64,000 nucleotides of DNA from Acidobacteriaceae bacterium (lineage in GTDB: Bacteria > Acidobacteriota > Terriglobia > Terriglobales > Acidobacteriaceae), in NCBI GenBank assembly GCA_035944135.1, contig DASZBM010000007.1:62001-126000 (forward strand). The letters run 5' to 3'. The position numbers were made by a program, and so were the translations under genes. Positions 2,660-33,123 of this stretch are shown here, piece after piece (the stretch's first letter is position 1; each line of letters opens with the position of its first letter). The notes beneath the pieces are model-generated. The model saw only the letters and a list, made by a program, of their open reading frames with translations. It did not search any database and was not told the DNA's origin.

Positions 2660-3889
2660 ATGACTCACCGGGTCCTCGGCGCGCTCTGTTTTGTTGCAAT
2701 CTTTGGCTGCGTTGATATCGCTGCGGCGGGCGCGCAGAACAACGAGGCGCTCGGCGCTGTCACGGGCCACGTCCAGTGTTCGGACACACAGCAGCCCGCG
2801 CGGCTGGCGCACGTTGTGCTTCAACCGGTCGTGGACCTAAACTCGCCGGTGCTCAGGAAGGACGACCGTGGGTATCACCCCGAAGGAACTTTTCAGCTGC
2901 AGACCGTGAGCCTCGACGGTTCGTTTACCATTCCCGCGGTACCGCCGGGTCGTTACTATGTGATCGCGGAGCAGGATGGCTATATTACCCCGCTCGCACT
3001 GTTTACGCGTGCGCAACTCAACGATCCGGACGAGGCGCTGAAGCAGAAGATAGCGCGCTACATGACAACGATCTCGGTCACGGCCGGGCACACCACTCAG
3101 GCCGATGTCACGGTTATTCGCGGTGCTGTCATCGCCGGAATGGTGCGCTTTGAGGATGGATCACCAGGCATCAATGTCGGGGTGCAGCTATTGCAGCGCA
3201 GTGACAAGGGTGAATGGCAGACTGTGCGTACTGGAAGACTCGCCAGTCACGGCATGGGTGGCACGAGCTATACGAATGACCAGGGAGCGTATCGCTTCAG
3301 CGGACTTGCAGCTGGTGAGTACATGGTGCGTGCCAATGTCGAGCTGAACAAGGTTACTGTCAGTTACATCTTTGCCTCCGGCGGCAGTACAGGCTACGGT
3401 GATGGCTATCATCTCCGTGTCTATCCCGGCGACGCGTTTCGTCCTGGCGACGCCAAGCCGGTGAAGGTCGAGGAGGGCGAAGACGCGACAAGTGTCGACG
3501 TTGATATACCGCTGTCGAAGCTATACACGCTCAGCGGAACCGTGATTCAACCGAACTCCGAGTTGCCTGTGAACTCGGCCCGCCTGACGCTTGTATTTGC
3601 CGATACGGGCGAGGAACTCACGTTCACGGACGTGGAGTCTGACGACGGGAGCTTTCGCTTTGACTTTGTACCGGGGGGTAACTACATCTTGCGCGCAACC
3701 AATATTGCGAACGTTGAGCGCACTGACGTGCCCAATTGCAAGGGTTGCATTCCGCCAACACACCTGGAGCTGAAGGGTCTCGCCACATTTGGCGATGCGT
3801 CTCTTCCGATTCAACTGACCAGTGACCAGAGCGCTGTGGTGGTACAGGCGACACAATCAAAGAAAACGGCAACCGCGCCTGCTCAGTAA
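2660..3889 (+). CDS. Secreted carboxypeptidase-regulatory-like repeat protein
   Basis: A 409-residue protein with a Sec signal peptide (cleavage expected after about residue 25, AAAGAQ). Three related beta-sandwich units are visible by their shared pattern 'G-S/A-F/Y-x-F/I-x-x-V/L-x-x-G-x-Y-x-V/L-R/x-A'. They are GSFTIPAVPPGRYYVIAEQD (about 90-110), GAYRFSGLAAGEYMVRAN (about 215-235) and GSFRFDFVPGGNYILRATN (about 335-355). This is the CarboxypepD_reg / transthyretin-like fold that is greatly expanded in secreted Acidobacteriota proteins and often precedes TonB-receptor barrels. Here no barrel follows, so it is a stand-alone surface or periplasmic protein. The start at 2660 was chosen because the preceding codons of the longer frame do not belong to a signal peptide. 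The specific ligand is unknown. Confidence 0.8.
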   Translation: MTHRVLGALCFVAIFGCVDIAAAGAQNNEALGAVTGHVQCSDTQQPARLAHVVLQPVVDLNSPVLRKDDRGYHPEGTFQLQTVSLDGSFTIPAVPPGRYYVIAEQDGYITPLALFTRAQLNDPDEALKQKIARYMTTISVTAGHTTQADVTVIRGAVIAGMVRFEDGSPGINVGVQLLQRSDKGEWQTVRTGRLASHGMGGTSYTNDQGAYRFSGLAAGEYMVRANVELNKVTVSYIFASGGSTGYGDGYHLRVYPGDAFRPGDAKPVKVEEGEDATSVDVDIPLSKLYTLSGTVIQPNSELPVNSARLTLVFADTGEELTFTDVESDDGSFRFDFVPGGNYILRATNIANVERTDVPNCKGCIPPTHLELKGLATFGDASLPIQLTSDQSAVVVQATQSKKTATAPAQ

Positions 3890-3902
3890 GGAGGCGGGTC
3901 CT

Positions 3903-5381
3903 CTATGCGTCGAGCTTCTTTACGACGAGCTCATTGAGCAGCGCCGGGTTCGCTTGGCCCTTCGAGAGCTTCATCACCTGGCCGACGAAGAACGCTGCCA
4001 CGGTGCGCTTGCCGCCCTTGAACTGCGCAACCTGCGCGGGGTTCGCGGCGATGACCTCGTCGATCATCTTCTCGATGGCGGAGCTGTCGGTGATCTGCTG
4101 CGGCTTGTCGCGGTCGTAGACAAAGGCGAAGTCGCGGCCCTCGGCAAAACAGGTGTCGAGGAGCTGCTTGAGCTGCTTCGAGCTGATGGCGCCGCCTTCG
4201 GTGAGGTCGGCGGCGAGCACGACACCGTCGAGCGAAATGGGACTCTTATCGAGCGTGATGTCGGCTGCGCGGAGACGCATGGTGATCTCGCTCAGCAGGA
4301 TGGACGCGACGCGCCTGGGTGACTTCGCGCGCTTGGCGGCCTGCTCAAACAAATCGCCGAGTTCGCGGTCTGTTGTAAGCGTTGCGGCATCCTGTGCGCT
4401 CAAGCCGAACTCAGTTGTGAGACGCGCGCGGCGTGCCTCCGGCAGCTCCGGCATTCCAGCGAGGATGTCCTTCTTCCATGCATCGCCGACGATCAGCGCC
4501 GGAAGATCAGGCTCCGGGAAATAGCGGTAGTCGTGCGCCTGCTCTTTCGAGCGCATGGAATACGTGCGGCCCTCGGCATTGTTCCAGAGGCGCGACTCCT
4601 GCACGACGCGGCCGCCCTCCTCAATCACGCCGATCTGCCGCTCGATCTCGTACTCCAGCGCGGCGCGGATGTAGCGGAAGCTGTTGACGTTCTTGACCTC
4701 AGCCTTGGTGCCGAATTTGTCAGAGCCCTTGGGCATCACGCTGACGTTGGCGTCGCAGCGCAGCGAGCCCTCTTCCATGTTGCAATCGCTGACGCCGGTG
4801 TAAAGCAGGATTTCCTTCAGGCGCGTGAGGTACTCGAAGGCTTCGTCGGGCGTGCGGATGTCGGGCTCGGAGACGATCTCGATGAGTGGCGTGCCACAGC
4901 GGTTGAGGTCGATGTAGGTGCGTGTGCCGGAGTCCGCGAAGCCGTCATGCAGGCTCTTGCCGGCGTCCTCTTCCATGTGCAGACGCGTGATGCCGATTCG
5001 TTTCGGATTGCCATCAGCGTCAGGCACAGTCAGTGAGCCATGTTCGGCGAGTGGTTTATCGAACTGCGATATTTGATAGCCCTTGGGCAGGTCGGGGTAG
5101 AAGTAGTTCTTGCGCGCGAAGATGCTGCGTGTGTTGATGGTGCAGCCAAGCGCTTCGGCCGCGAGCGTCGCGAACTCGACTGCCTGGCGGTTGAGCACGG
5201 GCAGAGCGCCGGGCAGACCCAGGCAGACCGGGCAGATGTGCGTGTTGGGCTCGCCGCCGTACTCGTTCTTGCAGCCGCAGAAGGCCTTGGTCTTCGTCAG
5301 CAGTTGGACGTGGACCTCAAGACCAATCACGGGTTGGTATTTGGCAATCACCTCGGGCGCGAGACCGGCAAGAGCGGGCAT
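3903..5381 (-). CDS. gatB: Asp-tRNA(Asn)/Glu-tRNA(Gln) amidotransferase subunit B
   Basis: A 492-residue protein of the GatB family, close to the usual 475-485. The N-terminal catalytic cradle starts with YQPVIGLEVHVQLLTKTKAF, followed by the zinc-site cysteines (FCGCKNEYGG and HICPVCLGLPG). The kinase-like core has KGYQISQFDKPL, RIGITRLHMEEDAGKS and DLNRCGTPLIEIVSEPD. The C-terminal YqeY/tail domain ends in NPALLNELVVKKLDA. GatB activates misacylated Glu-tRNA(Gln) or Asp-tRNA(Asn) for amidation by ammonia from GatA. gatA and gatC are not in the window, so the genes are not in one operon here. The gene converges on 2660-3889 with a 13-base gap and diverges from the channel gene at 5461. Confidence 0.97.
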   Translation of the reverse strand: MPALAGLAPEVIAKYQPVIGLEVHVQLLTKTKAFCGCKNEYGGEPNTHICPVCLGLPGALPVLNRQAVEFATLAAEALGCTINTRSIFARKNYFYPDLPKGYQISQFDKPLAEHGSLTVPDADGNPKRIGITRLHMEEDAGKSLHDGFADSGTRTYIDLNRCGTPLIEIVSEPDIRTPDEAFEYLTRLKEILLYTGVSDCNMEEGSLRCDANVSVMPKGSDKFGTKAEVKNVNSFRYIRAALEYEIERQIGVIEEGGRVVQESRLWNNAEGRTYSMRSKEQAHDYRYFPEPDLPALIVGDAWKKDILAGMPELPEARRARLTTEFGLSAQDAATLTTDRELGDLFEQAAKRAKSPRRVASILLSEITMRLRAADITLDKSPISLDGVVLAADLTEGGAISSKQLKQLLDTCFAEGRDFAFVYDRDKPQQITDSSAIEKMIDEVIAANPAQVAQFKGGKRTVAAFFVGQVMKLSKGQANPALLNELVVKKLDA

Positions 5382-5460
5382 GGTTTGAGTTTATCAATGC
5401 GCACCCCTCGCTGGCGGGCCGCCGCTGCATCTCATAGCTTCAGTTTCGCGGAGGCGGTGA

Positions 5461-6402
5461 ATGCCAGAGCAGTCGACGAGCGCGTCAGGACCAGAGCAGG
5501 CCGGCGAAGAACATCGCAAGGAGAGCGGCTGGGCCGGACAGAACGCAGGCGCGGCGAACAGCGACAGCAGTGGAGGCGGTAATGGAGGCGGTGGCGACAC
5601 CGGCGGATCGCGCCAGAAGAACCTGGAGCGGCCCACTGCAGAAGACATCTACGAGCAGGTCGCCCTTAATGCGAAGACGGAGCTGAAACGATCAACGCTG
5701 TCGCTCGCGATCTCTGGGTACGCCGGCGGCATCTTCATGGGGCTTTCGGGGCTGGGTACGGCGCTGGTGCTCGGCCTGTTCGGCACGTCGCCCAGGACGC
5801 ACTTCATCGCAGCCATGTTTTATCCGATCGGCTTCATCGTGGTGATCATCGGACGGGCGCAGCTCTTCACGGAGAACACTCTGTATCCGGTTGCGCTTGT
5901 TCTCTCGGAGAAGCGCGAACTGTGGAATACGCTGCGGCTGTGGTGCACGGTGCTTCCAGCCAACGTGCTGGGTGCGCTGACGTTTGCGGCGCTGGCGACA
6001 CGCACCGGCGCGCTTATGCCGGAGACTCGACAGGCGCTGATGCAGCTCGGTCTGCAAGCCGCGCACACCGCGCCGGGAACGATTTTCTGGAGCGCTGTCA
6101 CCGCGGGCTGGATCATCGCGACGGCCGCATGGCTCGTCTCCGGATCGCATTCGATTACGGGTTCAGTGATGATCCTGTGGATTCTCACTTACGTGGTGGG
6201 TCTGGGGAACTTCGCTCATTGCATCGCGACCTCGGGTGAAATTTTCTCCGCCGTGCTGGGTCACCAGCTTGGCACAGGCAGCTACTTTCACTGGCTTTGG
6301 ATTGCTGTCGCCGGAAACGTATGCGGGGGCGTGTTCATGGTCACGCTGCTGGAGTACGGACAGGCGATCCTGGCCAAGGGAGACACACCGGTCGAGCCGT
6401 AG
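5461..6402 (+). CDS. Formate/nitrite transporter (FNT) family channel
   Basis: A 313-residue protein. The first about 60 residues are a hydrophilic, Gly/Ser-rich cytoplasmic extension (GGGNGGGGDTGGS). Six hydrophobic helices follow from about residue 75. The FNT family signature is visible in the first helices (AISGYAGGIFMGLSGLGTAL), in LFTENTLYPVA (the Omega-loop region) and in NFAHCIATSGEIF with the conserved pore His. FNT channels move small monovalent acids such as formate, nitrite or hydrosulfide across the inner membrane; this subgroup is the YfdC-like type, for which the substrate is not known. A GGAGGCGG ribosome site sits just before the ATG. mfd follows after 50 bases and could be co-transcribed. 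Confidence 0.88.
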   Translation: MPEQSTSASGPEQAGEEHRKESGWAGQNAGAANSDSSGGGNGGGGDTGGSRQKNLERPTAEDIYEQVALNAKTELKRSTLSLAISGYAGGIFMGLSGLGTALVLGLFGTSPRTHFIAAMFYPIGFIVVIIGRAQLFTENTLYPVALVLSEKRELWNTLRLWCTVLPANVLGALTFAALATRTGALMPETRQALMQLGLQAAHTAPGTIFWSAVTAGWIIATAAWLVSGSHSITGSVMILWILTYVVGLGNFAHCIATSGEIFSAVLGHQLGTGSYFHWLWIAVAGNVCGGVFMVTLLEYGQAILAKGDTPVEP

Positions 6403-6452
6403 CCGAGGGCGAGCGTTCGCCGCGACAGGCGCCGGGCTACACTGGAGACTGC

Positions 6453-9400
6453 ATGATTCTTCCGTTCGTCCGCGAGTTGGTCGCGGACCTTGAACGATCT
6501 CCAGTCTTTGAGCGTGTGCGTCGCCATCTAGCGGGCGGCACGGGCCGGAGACGTGTGTCCGGACTGACCGCGACCGCGCGGGCTCTCTATCTTCCCTACT
6601 TCGTGAAGGCCGCTGAGGCGCCAGCGCTCGTGCTTGTGGCGGACAACAAGGCCGCCGAGGCGCTGCATGCAAATGTGCTCGCGGCCTGCCAGTTGAGCGG
6701 CGCGCTGAGTGCCGAAGAGGTGCTGCGGCTTCCCGCGCACGATGTGCTTCCGTTTGAAAATCTCTCGCCGCATCCGGAGATCCAGGAGCAGCGCGCAGCT
6801 ACGCTCTGGAAGATTGCAAGCGGGCAGGCACGGCTCGTGATCGTGCCGATTGAGGCTGCATGCATGCGGCTGTTTGCGCGCGATCATTACGCTGCGCTCG
6901 CTCTGATGCTGCGTCGCGGTGAGGAACACATACCGGAGATGCTGGTCGATCATTTGATCTCGGTCGGCTACACGCGCGTGGATGTCGTCGACATGCCGGG
7001 GCAGGTGACGATTCGCGGCGGCATTCTGGATGTGTATGGGCCCGAGATGGAGCGGCCGGTGCGCATCGACTTCTTCGGTGACGAGATCGAGTCGATTCGG
7101 CGCTTTGATCCGGAGACCCAGCGCTCTTCGACGTCGATCGACGAGGCGCTGCTGCTTCCGCTCACAGAGACACCCGCGACCGAGAAGCTGCTCGAGGCGA
7201 TCAATGCACGGCTGACGCGCAGCGGAAGTGCGGGCGCTGCGCTGGAGGGCGGTGATACTCCAGCGGAGTTGCAGACGCATGTCGGTGGCAATGCGCGTGA
7301 GGCGACGATCTTTCCCGGGTGGGAGTTTTACGCGCCAGTCGCCGGAGCGCGGTCGTCGCTGCTGGAACTGATGGGGCAGCACACGCGGGTATTCGTGGAA
7401 GAGCCCGCGATGGTGCTGAACCAGGGCGAGCGCTGGTGGAACAAGGTCGAGCAGCGGCATGAACGCTCCGGCATCGGGTCGCTGGTGCGCGCGGAGGATC
7501 TGTATCTCTCGCCGTGGGAGCTTGAGGACAGATTGCGTGCATTCTCGGGCTGTGATCTCGATCAACTCGGCGCGGTAGACGTGCTCGAGAGCACGCGGAG
7601 CGACGCGAGCGAGATCGAGTTTGCGACGCGGCCAACGCTGCGCTTTCATGGATCGATTCCGAGTTTCATCGATGAGTTGAAGAAGCTGATGGAGAGTGAG
7701 GCGCGCGTGCTCGTGGCTGCTCCCAATCAGGGTGAGCTGGAGCGGCTTGCCGGGCTACTGCAGGAATACAACGTGCCGTACCGCATCGGCTGGCGCACGG
7801 ACCACGGCGCGTCGGCGACCGTGTTTTCGGAGTCGAGCTATCTCGCCGGCGACCTGCGCACGCCAGTGCTGGTGCGCGCCGCGATTGCGAATGGCGTGCA
7901 GGTGCTCGATCTCGATCGGGCGACTGCTCGGCAGTTTGTACTCTTCGGCGCGAATGATCTGAACGACGAGGTCGACGTGCACGCGCGCCCCGTGCGCCGC
8001 GGCAAGACCTCGGCGTTTGTCTCGGACCTGCGCGATCTTGCGGTGGGCGATTATGTCGTGCACGTCGAGCATGGAATCGCGCGCTACGACGGCCTGCGTG
8101 TCATTGACGAAAAAACGAGCAGCGACGGCGATGGGAGTTCGCAGCTTGAGCTGATGATCCTCACCTTTGCCGAGGACGCGAAGCTGTATGTTCCGCTCAC
8201 ACGCCTCGATCTGATTCAGAAATATCGCTCAACGGAAGCAGGACCCGCGCCGCAGTTGAATCGGCTTGGAAATCCTTCGTGGTCCAAGACCAAGGCGCGC
8301 GTGAAGAAAGCCATGGAGGACATGGCTGAGGAGCTGCTAAAGCTCTACGCGCAGCGCAAGGCCGCGATGGGCACAGCGTTTTCGCCCGACAACAACATGA
8401 TGCGCGAGTTCGAGGACGCGTTCGACTACAACGAGACGGACGACCAGATCAGTGCGATTGCGGACATCAAGTCGGACATGGAGTCGACGCAGCCGATGGA
8501 TCGCCTGCTCTGCGGCGACGTGGGCTACGGCAAGACCGAGGTGGCGATGCGCGCGGCGTTCAAGGCCGTGCAGGATTCAAAACAGGTTGCTGTGCTCACC
8601 CCGACGACGGTGCTCTGTTTCCAGCACTTCGAAAGCTTTAAGCGGCGCTTCGCAAACTTCCCTGTCACCGTCGAGATGATCTCGCGTTTCCGCACGGCCA
8701 AGGAGCGCAAGGAGATTCTGGAGCGTGTGGCCGATGGTAAAGTCGACATCCTGATCGGAACGCACGCGATTCTTGCGCAGGGATTGAAGTTCCAGGACCT
8801 CGGATTGCTGGTGGTGGATGAGGAACAGCGCTTTGGCGTGCGGCATAAGGAGCGCCTGAAGCAGATGCGCGCCGCGATCGATGTGCTGTCGATGTCGGCG
8901 ACGCCGATTCCGCGCACGCTGCATATGAGTCTGGTTGGATTGCGCGACATGAGTGTCATTGAGACGCCGCCGAAGGACCGTATGGCAATTCAGACGGTCG
9001 TGGCGAAGTTCGACGAGAAGCTGATTCGCACAGCGATTGAAGTGGAGCTGGAGCGCGGCGGGCAGACGTATTTTGTGTCGAACCGCGTTGAGACGATCTA
9101 CGAGATGGCGACGAAGATTCGCGAGCTCGTGCCGCAGGCGCGCGTCGTTGTGGGCCATGGCCAGATGCCGGAGGCGGAGCTCGAGCGCGCGATGCTCGCG
9201 TTCATGAACGGCGAGTACGACGTGCTGTGCGCGACGAGCATCATCGAAAACGGCCTTGATATTCCGCGCGCAAACACGATCATCATCAACCGCGCAGACC
9301 GTCACGGATTGAGCGAGCTATATCAGCTTCGCGGACGCGTAGGGCGGTCGAATCGGCGCGCCTATGCGTACCTTCTGATTCCGCCGGAGCAGCAGTTGAC

Positions 9401-28239: not shown

Positions 28240-28923
28240 CTAGCAGTTTTCGTACTTCCAGTTGCGGCGTTTGCCCTCGGATATCCACTCGACGGCCGTG
28301 GCAACGCGCTTGTCGCGGGTTTCGTCCCGCTTGGCTTCGGAGATCCACTCGCAGTACTCGCGCTGGCAGCCGGGAGGCATGGCGGCAAACTGGGTAGCTG
28401 CTGCCTTGTTCTTCTTGAGCGCAGCGGTGAGTGCGGGTGGGACCTCAGGTGGTGGTTTGGGGGCGGCGTTCCTGGGCCGCGAGTAGTTCTGGGTGCGCGC
28501 GCCGGTCTCGATCTCGGCAGCGGCGGAGCGGATGTATTTCGTGAATTCGCGGTCAGAGGGAAGGTCTTTGACGGAGGTCAGCTTGCCAAGCACGCCCATC
28601 GCTTTTCGGTCATAGAGACCGTCTTCGCGCAGGTCGGCGGCGGCTTCCTTGCCCCATAGACCGAAGCTGCAGTGTTGCTTGAAAGCGGCCATGTTGCCGA
28701 GCATGAGCCCTCGATAGATGAAGAATGGCATGGACCACTTGATGTCTTCTTCGACATCCGGGAGCGCTTTGTGAACGAGCTCGCGGATATGCGTGAGGAT
28801 TGGTTGCGCGAAGGGAGCCGCGGACGCGATGTACGCATCGACTCTGGGTGAATAGAAGCTGTTGTGCGCAACCGGCCCGGCCGCCTTGCGCGAAGGCGGG
28901 GACTTCACTTGGGTGGGAGCCAT
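28240..28923 (-). CDS. YdeI/OmpD-associated family protein
   Basis: A 227-residue soluble protein. The N-terminal domain (about 20-125) is DUF1801/YdhG-like (SPRVDAYIASAAPFAQPILT, then DVEEDIKWSMPFFIYRG, and KQHCSFGLWGKE). The C-terminal region has the YdeI bacteriocin-protection/OmpD-associated motif, PPALTAALKKNKAAATQFAAM followed by CQREYCEWISEAKRDETRDKR. Such proteins are widespread but of unknown biochemical role; they have been linked to stress and peptide resistance. The start is at 28923 (MAPTQ); an alternative ATG at 28935 adds four residues. It lies between mutY and the polyketide operon on the same strand with gaps of about 60 and 20 bases, and may be read through from the polyketide genes. 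Confidence 0.85.
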   Translation of the reverse strand: MAPTQVKSPPSRKAAGPVAHNSFYSPRVDAYIASAAPFAQPILTHIRELVHKALPDVEEDIKWSMPFFIYRGLMLGNMAAFKQHCSFGLWGKEAAADLREDGLYDRKAMGVLGKLTSVKDLPSDREFTKYIRSAAAEIETGARTQNYSRPRNAAPKPPPEVPPALTAALKKNKAAATQFAAMPPGCQREYCEWISEAKRDETRDKRVATAVEWISEGKRRNWKYENC

Positions 28924-28942
28924 GCGGAACAGCATACGCGCG

Positions 28943-30154
28943 TCACGCTGCCGTGCAAGTGTTTTCGTGCGACGCCGGGAACGGCTGCGCAGGAACCTGG
29001 TGCTGGGAGGCGAGTCGAGTGCAGGAGGCTACGGAGCGGAGCACGCCGGGTAGGACGCACGCCGCCGCGGAGAGGATGGAGCGTTGCGGCTGGGTTACCA
29101 GCGCACGGGAGAGCATGGTGGCGAGGGAAATCTGGCGGTGAAGCTGGCCGTAAAGCTCGGCATGAAACTCGTGGGACGAGTGACCTGCGAGCAGGGCGCG
29201 TGCGGCAAGGCGTCCGCTGTGCAGCGCGATTGCGAGGCCGTCGCCGGTGAAGGACGGGATGACCGCTGCCTGGTCGCCGATGGCGAAGAGGTCCTCGGCG
29301 ATGGCTTGCCGCAGCAGATGCCCGTACGGGATCGGGCTGATCGCGAGCGGCCGCTCGAGTAGCGGATGTGCGCCGGCCAGGCGCGTGCGAAGGTGCGGGT
29401 TTCGCGTGAGGACTCCAGTGATGGCGGACCAGTCGCGGCCGAGGTCGCGCACGTGACTACGCTGGATGACGAAGCACAGGTTGGCCCTGTCGCCTTCCGC
29501 TCTTTTTCCAGCAGTGTCTTCGACCAGCGAAAGGCCGCCGTAGCCGCCGCGGAAGAGTGCGAGCTCAATCGTGTCCCGGATGGCGTCGCTCTGCTCAGGT
29601 GCGAGGCGCAGGTACATCTTGAGGCCGACAAGATCGGTGTGCGTGCCCTCAGGGCGAGGAAGCCCGCGGAGATCGTGCTTGCCGGTGGCGAGCAGAATGT
29701 GCCGCGCGCTGAGCGTGTAGCTGCGGCTCGGGCCGGAGACGCCGACCTGCCAGAGATTGCCGCTGCGGTGAAGCGCCTGGGCCGTGTGACCGCGCAGGAC
29801 CAGCGCTCCGGCGGCAGAGGCGCGGCGCAGAAGCGCATCGTCCAGCGCACGACGGGTAAGTGATTGCGCAGCGAAGGGGAGAGTTGCAGAGGGAACGCCG
29901 AAACCGCCGGCGAGCCGGACGCGGTGAATGGGAACAGCTCCAAGCGCGGCGACGTTGAGCCCGAGAGCCTCGAGGCTGGAGAGCGCTTCGCCGGAGAGAA
30001 AATCACCGCAGACTTTGTGGTGCGCGTGCAGCGTGCGCTCGAGCAGTACGACACGGCGACCAGCCAGCGCGAGCTCGATGGCGGCGGCGGCGCCCGCCGG
30101 CCCCCCGCCGAGAATGACGGCATCGAGATCGGCGGTTGGATTCGAAACGGTCAT
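28943..30154 (-). CDS. FAD-dependent oxidoreductase of polyketide operon
   Basis: A 403-residue flavoprotein of the geranylgeranyl-reductase / PHBH-like group. The N-terminal dinucleotide fold is AVILGGGPAGAAAAIELALAG followed by the Glu end of strand 2 (VVLLERTLHAHHKVCGD). The GD motif near the C-terminus is EDLFAIGDQAAVIPSFTGDG. The SLTRRALDDALLRRA helix is typical of this group. It likely oxidises, hydroxylates or reduces the product of the upstream polyketide synthase and methyltransferase. The start at 30154 overlaps the methyltransferase stop by four bases (ATGA), so the genes are translationally coupled. No membrane segment is seen. The precise reaction is not known. Confidence 0.88.
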   Translation of the reverse strand: MTVSNPTADLDAVILGGGPAGAAAAIELALAGRRVVLLERTLHAHHKVCGDFLSGEALSSLEALGLNVAALGAVPIHRVRLAGGFGVPSATLPFAAQSLTRRALDDALLRRASAAGALVLRGHTAQALHRSGNLWQVGVSGPSRSYTLSARHILLATGKHDLRGLPRPEGTHTDLVGLKMYLRLAPEQSDAIRDTIELALFRGGYGGLSLVEDTAGKRAEGDRANLCFVIQRSHVRDLGRDWSAITGVLTRNPHLRTRLAGAHPLLERPLAISPIPYGHLLRQAIAEDLFAIGDQAAVIPSFTGDGLAIALHSGRLAARALLAGHSSHEFHAELYGQLHRQISLATMLSRALVTQPQRSILSAAACVLPGVLRSVASCTRLASQHQVPAQPFPASHENTCTAA

Positions 30155-30960
30155 GAGACTTGTCGGATGCGCGCAACGCACAGGCGGTTCATCGCGTGCG
30201 ACTCGATTTCCGCACCAGAAATGTTTGCCTCATCAAGCATGCGCTGCCAGTCGGCGGGAACAAACGCGCGGCGCAGCGAGACCGGACCGTCGTGGAAGAT
30301 GAAGTGGTGCCAGCCGAAGATGATGGGGAGAAAGCGGAATAGGAATGCGGCGCGGCGGCTGCGGTGCACATCGTTGATGAACCAGCCGAGACGGGCGTTC
30401 TGCTCGCTCCAGCGCAGGAAATGCACGATTTCGGGCGAGCTGAGATGGTGCGTGAACAGCGCGCTGATGATGACGTCGGGCCGAACTTCCGGCGCGTACG
30501 AGAAGACGTCTGCGGTCAGCCACGTGATGTTTCCACTCCAGCGAGCAAGCTCGCGGGCGCGGGCGTTGGACGCGACTGAGGTTCTATCGCCAAACTCACG
30601 GGCCGCGCGCTCCGAGTAAGGGTTCAGATCGATGCCGGTGAGCTCGACGGGAAGATCGCGCTCATGGGCCCAGAGAGCGACCGTGCGCAGCATGTCGCCG
30701 CCACCGCAACCGACGTCGAGGATGCGCAATGGCTGGGCGGTGTCGTGGCGTTTGGCCACGCGGGCAAGGAACTCCAGGGTGGGCTTGTATGCGTGGGTGA
30801 TGCGGTTCACCTCGCCGAGGTCGCGGAGGCAGTCGCGGAACTCTTCGTAGCTGCAAGGCTGGTCCATCAGCTCGGGCAGCTCGGCAGGCTCCGCGCGGCG
30901 GGCATACGTGAGTTCGGGCAGTGGAGTGACGGGGGCCGGCGTGATGGAATCAGGCTGCAT
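30151..30960 (-). CDS. Class I SAM methyltransferase of polyketide operon
   Basis: A 269-residue enzyme. The SAM-binding motif I is LRILDVGCGGGDMLRTVAL (about 80-98), motif II is LTGIDLNPYSERAARE (about 108-123), and ITWLTADVFSY supplies the third strand motif. The C-terminal half has RAAFLFRFLPIIFGWHHF, a hydrophobic patch that could contact a lipid-like substrate. The start (30960) lies inside the polyketide synthase end (30950), an 11-base overlap, and the stop overlaps the oxidoreductase start. It is expected to methylate an OH or carbon of the polyketide product. A quinone-type (UbiE/UbiG-like) reaction is an alternative, but the operon context favours the polyketide. Confidence 0.88.
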   Translation of the reverse strand: MQPDSITPAPVTPLPELTYARRAEPAELPELMDQPCSYEEFRDCLRDLGEVNRITHAYKPTLEFLARVAKRHDTAQPLRILDVGCGGGDMLRTVALWAHERDLPVELTGIDLNPYSERAAREFGDRTSVASNARARELARWSGNITWLTADVFSYAPEVRPDVIISALFTHHLSSPEIVHFLRWSEQNARLGWFINDVHRSRRAAFLFRFLPIIFGWHHFIFHDGPVSLRRAFVPADWQRMLDEANISGAEIESHAMNRLCVARIRQVS

Positions 30961-32044
30961 GGAAGAGCATCGTCTCTGCGGTGAGGCCGGGGCCGAAGCT
31001 CATTGCACAGCCGCGTTCGCCAGGTTGGGCGGTGCGCATGATGTCGTCCAGAACAAACATGACGGTCGCAGAGCTCATGTTGCCGAAGCGCTCGAGTACG
31101 GAGCGCGAGGAGGTGAGGGCTTCCGGCGGAAGGCCTAGCCCGCGCTCCACGCCGTCGAGGATGGTGCGGCCGCCAGGATGCACGCCCCAGAGCGTGATGT
31201 CGTCGGCGGTGAACGGGCCGACGATGTCCTCGCTGCAGGATTCGAGGCCCTTCGCGATTGCTGAAGGCACCTGGCCGGAGAGGAACATGTCAAAGCCGAG
31301 TCCGCGGATCTTCCAGGTGATGAGCTCGCGCGTCTCCGGGATCGTGACCGCGCGGAAGCTGTCGAGCGCAAGCCCGATGGGTTCGGCGGAGAGGATGCTG
31401 GCCGCGCAACCGTCGGCGAACAGCAGGAAGCTGAGCACCTGCTCGAGATCGTGGGATTCCTGCAAGTGCAGCGAACAGAGCTCGAGGTTCACCATCAGGA
31501 CACGCGCATGGGGTTCGGAGCGGATGATGTGACGCGCCGTTTTGAGGCCGTTGATCGCGGCGTAGCATCCCATGAAGCCGATCATGGTGCGCTCGACGGA
31601 GGGGCAGAGCCCGAGATGGTCGACGACGTCGAAGTCCAGTCCCGGCGCGTACAGACCGGTGCAGGTGGTGACGACGACGTGCGTAATGGAGCGGCGCTCC
31701 GCGGGGGTGAGCTCGAGGCGGTCTACGGCCCGGCGCATGAGCACGGGAGCGAAGCGCTCGAAGATTTCCATGCGGTTCGAGGTGTCGGGGAAGCTGCCGC
31801 GGGTGTAGAAGCGGTGCGCGTTGATCCAGAACTCGGAGGTGTGATCTTCAGGTGCGTCGCGGTGCGGCGAGAGGATGGAGTAACGGTGCTGAATTCCCGA
31901 TCGCGAAGCCATGCGGTTGAAGAGGGCGCGCATGCGCGGGTCGGGCGACTCGGAGAGCAGGTTGTCGGCAAAGTCTACGAACGCAGTGTGGACGTCGTGG
32001 TCGGGGACAGCAGTTGCGATGCGGTTCAGGTAAACGTCGTTCAC
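30950..32044 (-). CDS. Type III polyketide synthase
   Basis: A 364-residue homodimeric thiolase-fold enzyme of the chalcone/stilbene synthase family. The catalytic triad is visible: Cys about 160 in GFMGCYAAING, His about 289 in GVHPGGRTILDGVE and Asn about 322 in RFGNMSSATVM. VTTCTGLYAPGLDFDVVD and MSFGPGLTAETMLF are family hallmarks. It extends an acyl-CoA starter with malonyl-CoA and cyclises the chain to a resorcinol, pyrone or naphthol. GTG 32044 is preferred: AAGGATGG precedes it, while the TTG at 32086 has no ribosome site. It heads the operon with the methyltransferase and oxidoreductase. Starter and product cannot be told from sequence. Confidence 0.95.
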   Translation of the reverse strand: MNDVYLNRIATAVPDHDVHTAFVDFADNLLSESPDPRMRALFNRMASRSGIQHRYSILSPHRDAPEDHTSEFWINAHRFYTRGSFPDTSNRMEIFERFAPVLMRRAVDRLELTPAERRSITHVVVTTCTGLYAPGLDFDVVDHLGLCPSVERTMIGFMGCYAAINGLKTARHIIRSEPHARVLMVNLELCSLHLQESHDLEQVLSFLLFADGCAASILSAEPIGLALDSFRAVTIPETRELITWKIRGLGFDMFLSGQVPSAIAKGLESCSEDIVGPFTADDITLWGVHPGGRTILDGVERGLGLPPEALTSSRSVLERFGNMSSATVMFVLDDIMRTAQPGERGCAMSFGPGLTAETMLFHAA

Positions 32045-32220: not shown

Positions 32221-33123
32221 ATGACAACGCCAAGGCAGATGACAACGATGCTCGCTGCGGCCACTCTGTTTGCGGCGACCGCAGTTTGCTCTGCGCAAAC
32301 CGCGAATCAGCCGGGCCCGGTGAACTCGACCGTACAGGAACAGCAGGCAGCGCCGATTGAGCATGCCTATGCAAACCAGAACACATATCACTACGCATAT
32401 CCCCAGCGGGTGGGGCCGCCGCAGATCTCGCCGGTGACCATCGGCCCGGGGCAGGAGATTTCCCCGACGACCGGAGAGGCGCAGGCCACACCGATCGAGG
32501 GAGTGATCCTGCGGGTGGGGCCGCAGAGCAAGGTGCGGGAGGTGAGCTCCGACGCCCAGAAGCTGGAACTGCGCGTGGAGCACGGGCTGGCGAACGTCAA
32601 CGTGCACAAGCCGGCGAAGGACACGATTATCCTGGTGGACCTGCCGGGCGGGCAGACGCAGATCCTGAAGGATGGCCTTTACACCTTCAACGCGGAGACC
32701 AACACCGCGCGCGTACTGAAGGGCGAGGCGCTGGCGTTCCCGGCGGGCGGTGCCGCAGACGCCAAGCCGATGAAAGTCAAGGAGAACAACAAGATCGTCT
32801 ACAGCGGGACCAAGGAGCGTCCGCACGAATTCGTTCCTTATGAGGCAAGCGCAGACATCCTGCCGGGACGCGGCTACGGCGAGCGCGGCGGTGGCATGGC
32901 GCCGGGTTTCGGCTACGGGCCGTATGGTGACGGCTTCTACCCGTACTACGCTTATGGCTATCCGGGCTGGGGATATCCCTACTATCCGTATGGCTATTAC
33001 CCTTACGGTTATGGCTTCTACCCATACGGCTACGGGTTCTATCCCTACGGCTTCGGGCTGGGCTTTACCTACTTTGGTGGTGGATATGGCTTCCATGGCG
33101 GTGGTTTCCGCGGCCGGAGGTAA
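32221..33123 (+). CDS. Secreted protein with Gly/Tyr-rich repeat tail
   Basis: A 300-residue protein with a Sec signal peptide (LAAATLFAATAVCSAQ). The middle part (about 75-205) is all-beta in character (IEGVILRVGPQSKVREVSS, then KLELRVEHGLANVNVHKPAK, then TQILKDGLYTFNAETNTARV), like a FecR-type or DUF3471-like sheet; I do not name it. From about 220 to the end the chain is a low-complexity Gly/Tyr/Pro/Phe run with tandem units of the form 'Y-P-Y-G-Y-G-F', ending GGGFRGRR. Such tails are typical of surface or matrix proteins that stick or self-associate. A strong terminator follows at 33145. The function is unknown. Confidence 0.75.
   Translation: MTTPRQMTTMLAAATLFAATAVCSAQTANQPGPVNSTVQEQQAAPIEHAYANQNTYHYAYPQRVGPPQISPVTIGPGQEISPTTGEAQATPIEGVILRVGPQSKVREVSSDAQKLELRVEHGLANVNVHKPAKDTIILVDLPGGQTQILKDGLYTFNAETNTARVLKGEALAFPAGGAADAKPMKVKENNKIVYSGTKERPHEFVPYEASADILPGRGYGERGGGMAPGFGYGPYGDGFYPYYAYGYPGWGYPYYPYGYYPYGYGFYPYGYGFYPYGFGLGFTYFGGGYGFHGGGFRGRR

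Follow-up and report, generated by a model that had tools for sequence, protein, structure and literature searches.

A probable hierridin-type phenolic-lipid operon in a family of Acidobacteriota

A 64,000-nucleotide stretch of an Acidobacteriaceae bacterium genome (GenBank assembly GCA_035944135.1, contig DASZBM010000007.1, positions 62,001 to 126,000 of the forward strand; hereafter the window) contains an operon of three overlapping genes that encode a type III polyketide synthase (PKS), an S-adenosylmethionine (SAM)-dependent methyltransferase (MT), and a flavin adenine dinucleotide (FAD) protein. It is likely, with a probability of about 0.7, that this is a hierridin-type phenolic-lipid operon with its genes in the hidC>hidA>hidB order. 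The three-gene set itself is already known from other bacteria, hierridin-like operons being reported from Cyanobacteriota and Planctomycetota (PMC8086630, PMC10896814). What is new is its occurrence in this family, which would extend a partly characterised type of phenolic-lipid operon to a family of Acidobacteriota. Bacteria of this phylum are common in soils. Searches of an open-access library turned up no paper on a PKS-MT-FAD operon in Acidobacteriota; two t3pks clusters are listed for Granulicella WH15, without details (PMC7074687). The operon comprises the following features.

30950..32044, minus strand: type III polyketide synthase, HidC-like; GTG start, 364 amino acids (Pfam, catalytic triad, tree, signature residues)
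30151..30960, minus strand: class I SAM methyltransferase, HidA-like; 269 amino acids (Pfam, NCBIfam PRK06202 kinship below its cut-off, trees, model)
28943..30154, minus strand: FAD protein of group A monooxygenase/halogenase fold, HidB-like; 403 amino acids (Pfam, profiles, tree, model)
30950..30960, minus strand: 11-base overlap of the PKS end and the MT start (open reading frame coordinates; ATG kept in relatives)
30151..30154, minus strand: ATGA overlap of the MT stop and the FAD start (open reading frame coordinates)

These features bear out the initial annotation, which had described three overlapping genes on one strand for a type III PKS with an intact Cys-His-Asn triad, a class I SAM methyltransferase, and a flavoprotein. 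The PKS matches Chal_sti_synt_N (7e-21) and Chal_sti_synt_C (1e-27) in Pfam, and its triad of Cys160, His289, and Asn322 lies in the expected motifs when aligned with PKS18 and plant synthases. The methyltransferase matches Methyltransf_23/25 at about 3e-7, and its model (pLDDT 89.2) has a class I fold. The third protein matches DAO (3e-9) and FAD_binding_3 (2e-8), with a group A monooxygenase/halogenase fold over most of the chain of its model (pLDDT 81.6). The GTG start of the PKS agrees with the start in relatives (MTTAYLNR...), and the ATG that yields the 11-base overlap is kept in 36 of the 37 other own-family loci with both genes.

Loci with the same gene sets were used to represent HidA, HidB, and HidC, and likewise SrsA, SrsB, and SrsC, in all comparisons. 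The hidABC operon of picocyanobacteria and the planctomycetal MT-oxidoreductase-PKS operon hold homologous MT, FAD, and PKS genes in one cassette, as the window does; profiles and trees support this homology, most strongly for the MT and the PKS. The gene order of Cyanobium hidABC is rotated relative to that of the window. The order in the window, PKS-MT-FAD, is hidC>hidA>hidB, a second arrangement reported beside hidA>hidB>hidC for some cyanobacterial hierridin-like clusters (PMC8086630). The family MT profile matches the hid-order MT profile at E 3e-39, and NCBIfam PRK06202 is matched by the methyltransferases of the window, its paralogue in the same genome, Aphanothece, Gimesia, and Roseomonas. 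The window PKS scores 185-222 bits against the 14 hid-type loci of other Acidobacteriota families, compared with 98-134 bits against 18 other type III PKS loci. Three of its residues, Cys128, His193, and Met253, are invariant in the family (39/39), in alphaproteobacterial (9/9) and Deinococcus (2/2) rows, and in hid-order rows (71/71, where L051 and L086 are one locus). Among 19 srs-like and other rows, position 193 is Thr or Ala and position 253 is Ile, Val, or Leu, so that His193/Met253 occur in none, and Cys128 is present in two. The window FAD protein scores 50-93 bits against the 14 hid-type loci of the phylum and 24-47 bits against six srs-like loci, and the family FAD profile matches the hid-order profile at E 4e-34 and the srs-like one at 1e-26.

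Within the own family, the PKS is present in 32 of 200 genomes, twice in five of them, at 57-69% identity. When gene order was counted with profile hidden Markov models (HMMs), PKS-MT-FAD on one strand was found in 36 of 39 own-family loci, 19 of them contiguous and 17 with one or two genes inserted between MT and FAD; the other three have PKS-MT (L163 and L180) or the PKS alone (L181, at a contig end). Because 36 of the 39 loci keep it, the three-gene order is not due to chance. The initial annotation had named, as grounds for doubt, genes that do not stay together in related genomes or a PKS grouped with enzymes of unrelated products; both were examined and neither was found.

Beyond the family, the PKS was searched against 297 genomes of the phylum, 94 of which had a match at E 1e-20. 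At E 1e-50 two separate groups appear, nine genomes from the own family (59-68% identity, not counting the window) and 14 from other families (35-42%). The 14 loci of other Acidobacteriota comprise 12 with MT-FAD-PKS, one with FAD-PKS (at a contig start), and one with PKS-MT-FAD (L054). The best 80 public loci for a hid-type query, several of which are cut by contig ends, show MT-FAD-PKS in 59, PKS alone in 12, FAD-PKS in four, FAD-MT-PKS in two, MT-PKS in two, and PKS-MT-FAD in one (L142). They are mostly from Planctomycetota, with others from Cyanobacteriota, Gemmatimonadota, Hydrogenedentota, and further groups. The order seen in the window thus also occurs off the main branch, in L142 (Gemmataceae, inside the MT-FAD-PKS clade) and in L054, from another Acidobacteriota family, and therefore probably arose more than once.

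Outside the phylum, the nearest PKSs among those found come from alphaproteobacterial plasmids and are 45-56% identical to the window PKS (tblastn). The search covered plasmid records, a partial sample of Alphaproteobacteria, and matched 191 of them, the best being Methylobacterium oryzae at 56.3%. Nine loci were fetched, of which seven (L189-L194 and L197) have PKS-MT-FAD; in L198 the MT gene follows the FAD gene in inverted orientation and in L196 it is upstream on the other strand. These operons (Acetobacteraceae; Methylobacterium, Microvirga, Paracoccus, Mesorhizobium, Sphingobium, and others) contain the same three families as the window, with the gene order of the window in the seven loci named. 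All Acetobacteraceae type III PKS clusters are reported to hold an MT and an FAD monooxygenase, the metabolite being given as unknown (PMC8776678). In the Microvirga plasmid locus L191, the FAD gene (6790-7479, 690 bases) is annotated as a short NAD-binding protein and is apparently truncated. Two Deinococcus loci (L195 and L203) have PKS, MT, and oxidoreductase genes in the window order, the oxidoreductases scoring weakly as FAD (65 and 49 bits).

Trees of the PKS, FAD, and MT proteins each join the family with alphaproteobacterial proteins. In a 63-row PKS tree, which took in 19 of 39 family, eight of nine alphaproteobacterial, and 19 of 71 hid-order rows and plasmid L199, the own family forms a single clade (100/99) that nests within the alphaproteobacterial rows (joint clade 100/99). 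The hid-order clade (99/99) and 11 of 12 outgroup rows (100/100) lie outside this joint clade; the tree gives no clear order of branching for these two clades, Deinococcus, and L054. The chosen outgroup does not separate at a single branch, because Nocardia L200 (end branch 3.0) joins L054, which is taken as a long-branch artefact. A first PKS tree had used 65 of the 80 named loci (without the 12 with PKS alone, two of odd order, and L086, a repeat of L051) and 10 outgroup loci; in it L054 stood as sister to the family (support 82), a placement that was gone once alphaproteobacteria were added. Quick FAD and MT trees were made with 18 of 39 family rows; score limits excluded the L193 MT and both Deinococcus FADs. 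In the MT tree, family and alphaproteobacterial rows join (99; family alone 85) as sister groups (87 and 85) with no nesting. In the FAD tree, they join at 98 without L193, which sits on a long branch outside the joint clade, with the family alone at 89 and weak nesting (86). Because the family PKSs nest among alphaproteobacterial plasmid PKSs, horizontal transfer from Alphaproteobacteria is suggested as the simplest reading of the PKS tree, and with it an exchange of the gene set between these groups.

A number of observations weigh against assignment to the hierridin type. The family PKSs form their own clade, outside the tested hid-order clade, which holds the picocyanobacterial HidC-like enzymes and was sampled without cyanobacterial enzymes of the hidC>hidA>hidB order; since they are in a separate clade and the window PKS is 36-39% identical to the three hidABC and planctomycetal PKSs compared, the product could differ. 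The alphaproteobacterial and acidobacterial branch is without any enzyme of known product in the literature consulted. Likewise, Cys128, His193, and Met253 are not exclusive, being carried by L077 and L078, which are Acidobacteriota PKSs without this MT-FAD pair. The window MT reaches 131.9 bits where the PRK06202 cut-off is 243, and those of Aphanothece (226.3) and Gimesia (224.8) also fall below it. The best NCBIfam match of the window FAD protein is a geranylgeranyl reductase family, below its cut-off. In addition, hid-order FAD profiles match srs-like ones (E 3e-34) as well as they match those of the family. Taken alone, the flavoprotein therefore does little to favour hid over srs, and it is the MT and the PKS that carry this case. 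The FAD and PKS trees were rooted on srs-like rows by choice and therefore cannot alone show that hid is nearer than srs.

The methylated, oxidised phenolic lipid proposed in the initial annotation is plausible as the product, by homology to enzymes with tested products. The PKS is predicted from its sequence to be a long-chain alkylresorcinol (or pyrone) synthase. Its Cys190 is opposite Cys205 of PKS18 (Phe in chain 1tee), and Thr129 and Ala133 are opposite residues 144 and 148, by alignment only; Ala133 is aligned with a Met of resveratrol synthase. The aligned PKS18 positions presumably line the long acyl tunnel, and small residues there would fit such a tunnel. The PKS would condense a long-chain fatty acyl thioester with three malonyl units and close the ring to give a 5-alkylresorcinol. 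The MT would then methylate a phenol oxygen or a ring carbon, and the flavoprotein would hydroxylate the ring, these two steps occurring in either order, to give a methoxyhydroquinone lipid that could be oxidised to an alkylbenzoquinone and would be located in the membrane.

We infer these steps because homologues have tested products (PMC10896814). The PKSs of Gimesia, Rhodopirellula, and Stieleria make pentadecyl- and/or heptadecylresorcinols, and the Gimesia MT and FAD pair adds one methyl, probably a C-methyl, the role of the Gimesia flavoprotein being left open in that paper; hidABC is reported to make hierridin B, with HidA methylating oxygen (PMC10896814). The Azotobacter synthases ArsB and ArsC, likened here by description only, are long-chain alkylresorcinol and pyrone synthases placed near HidC (PMC8086630). 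The MT model matches ChlM, Coq5, NovO, CouO, and several O-methyltransferases about equally, favouring neither O- nor C-methylation. By analogy with these systems, the best reading of the product is a methoxyhydroquinone or quinone lipid from a long-chain alkylresorcinol. Such a lipid could protect the membrane or could carry electrons, as the quinone lipid of the PkQ clusters of Actinomycetota does (PMC9927152, PMC8730385).

Other readings of the operon were considered. The initial annotation had likened the gene order to the srs-type pathway of actinobacteria and proposed an independent version of it, and neither proposal holds. The srsABC and mycobacterial/Streptomyces PkQ clusters follow the same logic of type III PKS, MT, and oxidoreductase. 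SrsB is taken here to belong to the ICMT family, and an ICMT methyltransferase to define the srs type. Srs-like clusters are present elsewhere in the phylum, in L067 and L068, with PKS, ICMT-domain MT (7e-29 and 1e-26), and FAD genes in that order, the same order as in the window, and with related flavoproteins (the E 1e-26 given above). The srs-like loci seen differ from the window in their ICMT methyltransferase and in their PKS clade: no match to the ICMT domain (PF04140) was found in the window MT in a Pfam search at E 0.001, and the window PKS is outside the srs-like clade at 100/100. Membership of the srs type is ruled out by these three observations, the separate srs-like clusters in the phylum, the MT without ICMT, and the PKS tree. 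An independent origin of the pathway is ruled out because the PKS and the MT have common, closer kin in one known hid-type cassette, and an invention of the own family is ruled out by the plasmid relatives with the same partners. An srs-type operon, or its re-invention, is therefore highly improbable; the srs reading is contradicted as a claim of membership, and a shared logic of the chemistry stays possible.

A resorcinol product is preferred to a pyrone for the hierridin-type operon. If the PKS closed the ring by lactonisation, it would make alkyl alpha-pyrones, of which the MT would form a methyl ether and the flavoprotein would hydroxylate the chain or ring. Myxococcota type III PKS clusters are annotated as alkylpyrone clusters (PMC12766979), the alkylpyrone synthase PKS18 is among the nearest solved structures to the window PKS and has aligned tunnel residues in common with it, and lactonisation and aldol closure are not separable by sequence here. 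This is nevertheless rather unlikely, as resorcinols are the products of those tested relatives whose MT and FAD partners are homologous (PMC10896814) and the flavoprotein fold would better suit hydroxylation of a phenol ring. It is quite improbable that the flavoprotein is instead a phenol halogenase or a reductase, with a halogenated or reduced product rather than a hydroxylated one. Its model gave 50 structural rows (Z 29.4-35.5, 337-371 residues aligned) of halogenases, aromatic hydroxylases, and a few other flavoproteins. The top matches are the FAD halogenases ChlB4 (35.5) and PltA (35.3), and a geranylgeranyl-reductase-like structure (3oz2) reaches 31.7, in keeping with the NCBIfam match noted above, but 3-hydroxybenzoate 6-hydroxylase (30.4) and p-hydroxybenzoate hydroxylase (30.3) score nearly as high. 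FAD halogenases have a conserved catalytic lysine at the usual place, whereas no lysine is conserved there in 38 aligned FADs, the sole invariant one being Lys47 in a KxCG motif. Hierridin C, on the other side, is reported to be chlorinated by an unknown mechanism (PMC8086630).

The same genome has a second, paralogous operon (L009; G000:C2:476000-490000, 3582-8840) of PKS-MT-DUF2306-FAD-YceI, with 66%, 50%, and 48% identity to the window PKS, MT, and FAD, respectively. Loci of this split class form one PKS sub-clade of 17 rows (99, SH-aLRT, first PKS tree). A DUF2306 membrane protein is encoded between MT and FAD in all 17 (by Pfam for L009, by similarity for the others). An opposite-strand gene without a Pfam match, which in L009 lies between DUF2306 and FAD, is also present in 10 of the 17. 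A YceI gene follows FAD in 15 of the 17 by HMM, or 16 with a partial tblastn match in L170, compared with 0/22 loci of the other own-family class (including about 7 kb of the window) and 1/94 hid-type loci, duplicates and PKS-only loci included. The HMM was built from the 15 split-locus genes and L062, L067, and L071, so recovering those genes is no independent test. The genome with the window has three YceI matches, two of them over the cut-off. The association of YceI and DUF2306 with the operon is descent within one class and not many independent events. YceI genes are also near four of 19 other Acidobacteriota type III PKS loci (L062, L067, L071 by tblastn, and L079 weakly), which may point to a broader association of YceI with such lipids. 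In the open-access library searched, neither a paper linking YceI with a type III polyketide nor the split copy and its PKS-less congeners were found. The presence of DUF2306 and YceI at the second copy gives a tangible starting point for learning how these lipids are transported or used.

Gene losses are seen between the two copies in some genomes. In G435, the contiguous locus (L163) has no FAD, and the split locus (L205) keeps MT-DUF2306-FAD-YceI with the PKS absent from the stretch; the genome has one PKS match at E 1e-50. G450 has a split locus (L206) without PKS in the stretch and a whole contiguous locus (L162). An extra FAD-YceI pair in G463 (L207) lies in a stretch that lacks both PKS and DUF2306; a 60-residue MT-like match there is doubtful. 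From this gene content in two or three genomes, a PKS at one locus may supply the enzymes at the other, an idea that the losses in congeners make directly testable by gene deletion. A further reading, in which a polyketide quinone serves these bacteria as an additional electron carrier in the membrane and is produced by two loci with a common enzyme pool, with a YceI-type lipid-binding protein and the DUF2306 membrane protein of the split locus carrying or reducing the finished lipid, is unlikely and speculative; the losses in G435 and G450 would be its trace.

A third type III PKS gene of the genome (L010, 4981-6069, on G000:C1) is in the srs-like clade, with 30.5% identity to the window PKS, and no MT or FAD partner was found beside it. 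A sigma-70 promoter scan of the window operon gave no sites, where 0.5 would be expected by chance. A divergent gene (32221-33123), with a weak FecR match below the cut-off and a Gly/Tyr-rich tail, has its intergenic region in common with the PKS gene. Downstream of the operon lies one further feature.

28240..28935, minus strand: DUF1801/OmdA-domain gene, separated from FAD by 7 bases (kept in synteny, with no apparent role in the pathway)

This gene is also beside the operon in four congeners (L160, L162, L163, and L164), and mutY is also within the stretches of L163 and L164.

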